NCBI GenBank assembly: GCA_003139855.1
Contig: PLGY01000036.1
Location: 4,751 to 68,750, forward strand
Length of the DNA: 64,000 bases
Origin: Candidatus Methanoflorens stordalenmirensis
GTDB lineage: Archaea; Halobacteriota; Bog-38; Methanoflorentales; Methanoflorentaceae
Direction of reading: 5' to 3'
The notes below the pieces were generated by a model. It searched no databases. It was not told where the DNA came from and worked only from the letters and a program-made list of their open reading frames with translations. Positions 46,856 through 48,874 of the stretch are shown piece after piece. Each line of letters starts with the position of its first letter. Within the stretch, counting starts at the first letter, position 1. The position numbers were made by a program, and so were the translations under genes.

Positions 46856-46940
46856 GCGGGGGTTGCCAAGCCAGGTCAAAGGCGATAGGTTCAGGGCCTA
46901 TTCTCGTAGGAGTTCGTGCGTTCGAATCGCACCCCCCGCA
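46856..46940 (+). tRNA. tRNA-Leu(CAG)
   Basis: GCGGGGG...CCCCCGC-A; ATAGG-TTCAGGG-CCTAT; class II variable arm. Confidence 0.9.
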
Positions 46941-48141: not shown

Positions 48142-48606
48142 TTGATTGTAATGAGTCCTGGAAGAAAGACTCAAAATAATGAGCTCGGCAGCGTCTTCGG
48201 AAAGCTGAAAAGCGACCGCTATTCGAGCTTTTTAGGAATTCAGATTACAAAAATCGAACGAGGCTACGCTCAAGCGAACCTGACAGTTGCTGAACAAATG
48301 CTCAATTTTAATGGCTTTGCGCACGGAGGCTTGATTTTTTCGCTCGCTGATGCAGCATTTGCAGCTGCTTGTAACTCATATGATCAGACGGCAGTCGCAT
48401 TGTCGTTCCACATCGCGTACCGACGGCCAGTCCAAGTTAACACACAGCTGGTAGCAGAGGCTGTGGAAGAGAGCTCGGGAAAAAGCACCGCGCTTTATAA
48501 GATCGTAGTAAAAACCGACGATCAACGCGTCGTCGCCATATGTGAAGGTTTGGCGTATAAACTGCAGTCTCGCGCAGTCAAAAATGATGGGCCCGAGGCG
48601 ATTTGA
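48142..48606 (+). CDS. PaaI-like hotdog thioesterase
   Basis: MLNFNGFAHGGLIFSLADAAFAAACNSYDQTAVALSFHIAYRRPVQ; TGA stop lies inside tRNA-Ile antisense. Confidence 0.88.
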   Translation: MIVMSPGRKTQNNELGSVFGKLKSDRYSSFLGIQITKIERGYAQANLTVAEQMLNFNGFAHGGLIFSLADAAFAAACNSYDQTAVALSFHIAYRRPVQVNTQLVAEAVEESSGKSTALYKIVVKTDDQRVVAICEGLAYKLQSRAVKNDGPEAI

Positions 48607-48695
48607 ACGCCTGACCTCACGGTTATCAGCCGTGTGCATATTCTCCGTCCTGAAATAAAACAGGATGGAATCAAACCTGGCTAAGCTACGGGCCC
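48588..48695 (-). tRNA. tRNA-Ile(GAT) with 33-nt non-canonical D-arm intron (48638-48670)
   Basis: GGGCCCG...CGGGCCC-A, CACGG-CTGATAA-CCGTG; removing TTCCATCCTGTTTTATTTCAGGACGGAGAATAT restores D stem GCTT/GAGC and a 75-nt tRNA. Confidence 0.85.
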
Positions 48696-48874
48696 ATTCG
48701 TTGGCAGCGCAATGCCTATAGGTCAATGCATTATATAACAATTCTTGTGTGCTCCTTAAGCAGACGGCGACGCGCGAATCTTTCTTTCTCGCAAAGTAAT
48801 GCTTATATGCATTGAGCCAAAAACGCTGTTGAAGTGTTCGGGCAGTCTACTAAAGGCAAACTGAGCACAGAGAA

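Follow-up and report, generated by a model that had tools for sequence, protein, structure and literature searches.

A conserved 23/24 D-arm intron, predicted to be spliced, in the tRNA-Ile(GAT) gene of Methanoflorens

The window, the whole stretch of 64,000 nucleotides analysed here, carries a tRNA-Ile(GAT) gene in which the D arm is interrupted by a short insert (Table 1). Read as the reverse complement of 48588-48695, the gene consists of GGGCCCGTAGCTTAGCCAGGTTTGA (5' exon), TTCCATCCTGTTTTATTTCAGGACGGAGAATAT (intron) and GCACACGGCTGATAACCGTGAGGTCAGGCGTTCAAATCGCCTCGGGCCCA (3' exon). The insert lies at tRNA position 23/24 and not at 37/38, and the anticodon loop, within an intact CACGG-CTGATAA-CCGTG arm, is uninterrupted. 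Direct reading of the sequence thereby bears out both the 33-nt D-arm insert at 48638-48670 and the intact anticodon arm described in the first-pass annotation. Excision of the insert leaves a 75-nt tRNA called as Ile(GAT) by ARAGORN and restores the D stem GCTT...GAGC, as had been claimed. The ends of the insert are unique, a shift by one base never yielding the same mature tRNA. The spliced junctions predicted from sequence for the intron-bearing tRNA-Ile genes read GGTTTGA^GCACACGG or GGTCGGA^GCGCTCGG (^, splice site). ARAGORN makes no call on the unspliced gene of the window, and in a covariance-model search with the Rfam tRNA model the unspliced gene reaches 24.3 bits, below the gathering threshold of 29 bits, with its 5' half misaligned. 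More generally, the ARAGORN call is absent or wrong for the unspliced intron-bearing tRNA-Ile genes, and the spliced forms are called as Ile(GAT) in 14/14 cases. ATC and ATT codons are frequent in the window, accounting for 211 of 3976 codons in ten ORFs, and tRNA-Ile(GAT) is therefore needed. Standard annotation overlooks essential tRNAs such as this one.

Table 1. Coordinates of the tRNA-Ile(GAT) gene and its elements in the window, and of a second tRNA gene with a D-loop insert elsewhere in the same genome (^, splice site).
Feature	Position	Strand	Remarks
tRNA-Ile(GAT) gene	48588..48695	(-)	108 nt, discriminator A73 included
5' exon, tRNA positions 1-23	48671..48695	(-)	end ...GGTTTGA; matches intronless relatives
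Intron at 23/24	48638..48670	(-)	33 nt, TTCCATCCTGTTTTATTTCAGGACGGAGAATAT
3' exon, tRNA positions 24-73	48588..48637	(-)	anticodon GAT
Central BHB helix, 5' strand GTTT	48673..48676	(-)	exon positions 19-21
Central BHB helix, 3' strand GAAT	48640..48643	(-)	intron-internal
5' bulge GA^T	48670..48672	(-)	5' splice site past second base
3' bulge AT^G	48637..48639	(-)	3' splice site past second base
TATA-like box TTATATAA, within block GAATTnTTATATA	48731..48738	(-)	upstream block kept in 6/6 distinct genomes compared
tRNA-Ser(CGA)	G000:C30:6365-6500 (L246, G000:C30:6315-6550)		17-nt D-loop insert and 25-nt canonical intron

The unique exon boundaries coincide with the cut sites of a bulge-helix-bulge (BHB) motif. 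Its central helix GTTT/GAAT has 4 bp, two of them G-U wobbles, and its inner helix spans nine positions with one A.C mismatch. The first-pass annotation had described these helices and the GAT and ATG bulges, all of which are present, and had left unmentioned that the outer helix past the 3' bulge is a single pair, G18-C25, in the window gene. This helix amounts to one pair in families f1 and f9 and two in f12 and f16, short of the outer helix that the strict hBHBh' form has beyond the 3' bulge; since it measures merely 1-2 bp, the motif belongs to the relaxed HBh' class, likewise on record for archaeal tRNA introns (PMC6379350). In 14/14 intron-bearing tRNA-Ile genes, the splice sites lie in two 3-nt bulges on either side of a 4-bp central helix. 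When the insert was subjected to mononucleotide shuffling in a fixed register, four central and at least eight of the nine inner pairs arose at a frequency of 1.45e-4. In folding of the whole precursor, the BHB fold (-37.6 kcal/mol) lies 4.5 above the minimum (-42.1 kcal/mol) under an energy model that ignores tRNA tertiary contacts. As a separate observation, window position 48674, tRNA position 21 and usually A, is here U21 and pairs with an intron G, and G21 occurs in f9, f12, f16 and several intronless relatives; the exon base at this position may be shaped by pairing with the intron.

The genome of the window (2.06 Mb, 76 contigs, 85% complete) is one of seven from GTDB Bog-38 (Methanoflorens), a group of peat methanogens (PMC10805028, PMC10873845). 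This lineage is one genus alone in its class, searches at genus, family, order and class level returning the identical set. The 23/24 intron is present in the tRNA-Ile(GAT) gene of 7/7 genomes, with nearly invariant exons and an intron of 32-34 nt that is variable in loop and stem. Across the six distinct rows of the alignment, 97.4% of the pair cells of the intron hairpin are paired, and two-sided changes affect three inner-helix pairs (A-U to G-C once, C-G to U-A twice), compared with a mean of 1.2 after shuffling; in slid controls, two-sided changes number 0-1 and pairing is lost. The A.C mismatch was considered as an argument against the inner helix and rejected: the same site is A-U or G-C in four sister genomes, and the mismatch is hence an intermediate. 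An intact second tRNA-Ile(GAT) without the intron was looked for by pattern searches in the seven genomes, each 61-90% complete, and none was found.

The same site is occupied in other families. A pattern search for the D-arm intron in 397 genomes of the phylum Halobacteriota yielded matches in four genomes of family f9, one of them carrying two copies in tandem, in three genomes of f12 and in two of f16. These introns measure 17-26 nt, lie likewise at 23/24 with 3-nt bulges, and have central helices GTCG/CGAC or GTTG/CAAT; no intronless tRNA-Ile(GAT) copy was detected by pattern in the carrier genomes of the three families. The tandem pair (G014:C1:2821347-2821619, L185/L194) is spaced 211 bp start to start and its introns are identical. 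Two further matches of the search were rejected, one (G123) being an intronless tRNA with a chance GCTCAG upstream and the other (G322) not a tRNA. Intronless pattern matches were obtained in 220/397 genomes of the phylum, and the sequence in three intronless genomes (G220, G150, G012) is GGTTGGAGCGCACGG, which across the junction matches the spliced form of f12 and f16 without a difference; on this sequence identity, these genomes represent the empty site of the 23/24 intron. The recurrence of the site in three further families of the phylum, with an empty site in others, is new. The remark in the first-pass annotation that introns at noncanonical positions are rarer in euryarchaea agrees with previous work (PMC3218864), but the site is not unique to this lineage. 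Family f9 is probably Methanocellaceae. Because tRNA genes in the Methanocella genome paper were predicted with a program that allows for introns, and those with introns were counted (PMC3146512), the f9 introns are possibly already in databases; no paper describing them was found in the literature searched. The 23/24 intron of tRNA-Ile may go back to a single ancient intron in a common ancestor of the carrier families. An EndA tree built to weigh one against several intron origins has unresolved backbone forks and several very long branches.

At the genome level, the window genome is rich in tRNA introns. An anticodon-loop intron is present in 14/39 of its Rfam-listed tRNA genes, as counted by ARAGORN with introns allowed or after removal of a D-loop intron, and the tRNA-Ile(GAT) D-arm intron comes in addition. 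This share is far above the roughly 8% of intron-bearing tRNA genes given for Euryarchaeota (PMC4090602), despite an endonuclease of the alpha'2 type. An intact tRNA-Ser(CGA) gene is misread as Gly(CCC), and removal of its 17-nt D-loop insert is sufficient for ARAGORN to call Ser(CGA). This insert has a BHB of its own (GGAC TA^A TCG-GTTA-CGA GTCC CA^A). As judged from these gene structures, noncanonical introns number at least two in this genome, and one tRNA gene contains two introns; the tRNA-Ser(CGA) insert is seen in one genome only. Within the window, a tRNA-Leu(CAG) at 46856-46940 on the forward strand is found by ARAGORN and omitted from the Rfam gathering list; its sequence resembles that of an ordinary class II tRNA.

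Inspection of the splicing endonuclease revealed one gene of ~350 aa with two PF01974 domains per carrier checked and no further PF01974 match in these genomes; the gene of G005, a genome 61% complete, is truncated where its contig stops, leaving one domain visible. The enzyme of the window genome is a two-domain protein of 346 aa, whose nearest solved structures are those of Archaeoglobus fulgidus (1r0v and 2gjw; E about 3e-34, nearly full length). The stretch after the FYG motif comprises 8-9 residues in 12/13 carrier sequences (G032 was not parsed) and 8 in A. fulgidus, and is longer in the CSL-bearing 3p1y. Such a short stretch indicates that a loop of the Crenarchaea-specific type is lacking. 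By domain content and motif spacing, the carriers' endonuclease is two-domain and alpha'2-type.

Taken together, the conservation in 7/7 genomes, the compensatory changes, the failure to find a second GAT gene, the relatives with an empty site and the presence of the endonuclease argue for the reading put forward in the first-pass annotation, namely that the lineage's tRNA-Ile(GAU) gene carries a spliced noncanonical intron at 23/24 in the D arm (probability about 0.93). The gene's own promoter would drive transcription of the pre-tRNA, in which D-loop bases 19-21 would form the 4-bp central helix with bases close to the intron's 3' end. The two-domain (alpha'2-type) endonuclease would then cut each 3-nt bulge past its second base, and a tRNA ligase would join the exons to restore GCTT...GAGC.

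It could be argued that the stability and structural conservation of the hairpin reflect an insert that is kept in a functional tRNA with an enlarged, hairpin-bearing D arm. This is very unlikely, since D-stem bases 22-23 would be split from 24-25 and relatives possess an intronless gene; moreover, the 3' end of the insert is fixed to pair with exon positions 19-21 and the bulges fall exactly at the junctions in four families, a geometry that would be unneeded in a retained insert. Even less probable, and strongly disfavoured, is a pseudogene accompanied by a working tRNA-Ile(GAT) in unassembled sequence: the 61-90% completeness of the assemblies and the sub-threshold Rfam score would fit, but exons are near-invariant in 7/7 genomes, the TATA-like box is kept, the intron changes are compensatory, and a second copy was found in 0/7 genomes. 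Split and permuted tRNA genes are known in archaea (PMC3218864), but such a gene, or an assembly artefact, is the least credible explanation and is contradicted by contiguity: each of seven assemblies, produced under various fen and SPRUCE peat project names, places the two halves in order and 33 nt from one another on a single contig.

A spliced intron at this site resembles the noncanonical BHB introns of Crenarchaeota, Thaumarchaeota, Nanoarchaeota and a few euryarchaeal methanogens in its short length, 4-bp central helix, 3-nt bulges, cut past the second bulge base and location in the D arm. Noncanonical sites described so far include 20/21, 22/23 and 25/26 (PMC4090602). The present introns differ in their occurrence at 23/24 of tRNA-Ile(GAT) in several Halobacteriota families and in being accompanied by an alpha'2-type rather than an (alpha-beta)2 or epsilon2 enzyme. 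With canonical 37/38 archaeal introns they share the BHB motif and presumably the enzyme, but not the position or, with the outer helix nearly absent (relaxed HBh'), the full motif. Noncanonical and relaxed introns have been tied to (alpha-beta)2 and epsilon2 endonucleases, and alpha4 and alpha2 enzymes to canonical BHB motifs only, euryarchaeal introns being few and restricted to 37/38 (PMC4090602, PMC4033280). It has also been reported that efficient removal of relaxed motifs is achieved by (alpha-beta)2 and epsilon2 enzymes only (PMC6379350), that alpha'2 enzymes favour strict BHB motifs (PMC6379350, PMC12397907), and that homodimeric enzymes cut BHL-like motifs as well (PMC8707768). The A. 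fulgidus alpha'2 endonuclease (1r0v, 2gjw), with which the window enzyme shares the two-domain organization, the GFKFG..FR.Y and HS.YLV motifs and the lack of a long post-FYG loop, is described as acting on canonical BHB only (PMC12397907) and as cutting BHL at 37/38 in full pre-tRNA (PMC6379350); unlike the A. fulgidus enzyme as described, that of the window genome would have to serve relaxed sites in the D arm. Either the full pre-tRNA context would help the alpha'2-type enzyme, or its specificity would be broader than described.

A wider proposal, tentative and put at slightly less than an even chance, is that in several Halobacteriota families an alpha'2 endonuclease lacking the loops to which broad specificity is ascribed routinely removes D-arm HBh' introns, of which the 23/24 intron may be one old shared example, and that subunit type and loop would accordingly not set the substrate range, against the co-evolution model. 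If confirmed, the combination of an alpha'2-type enzyme with an intron-rich genome harbouring at least two D-arm introns would provide a direct test of the limits of this enzyme.
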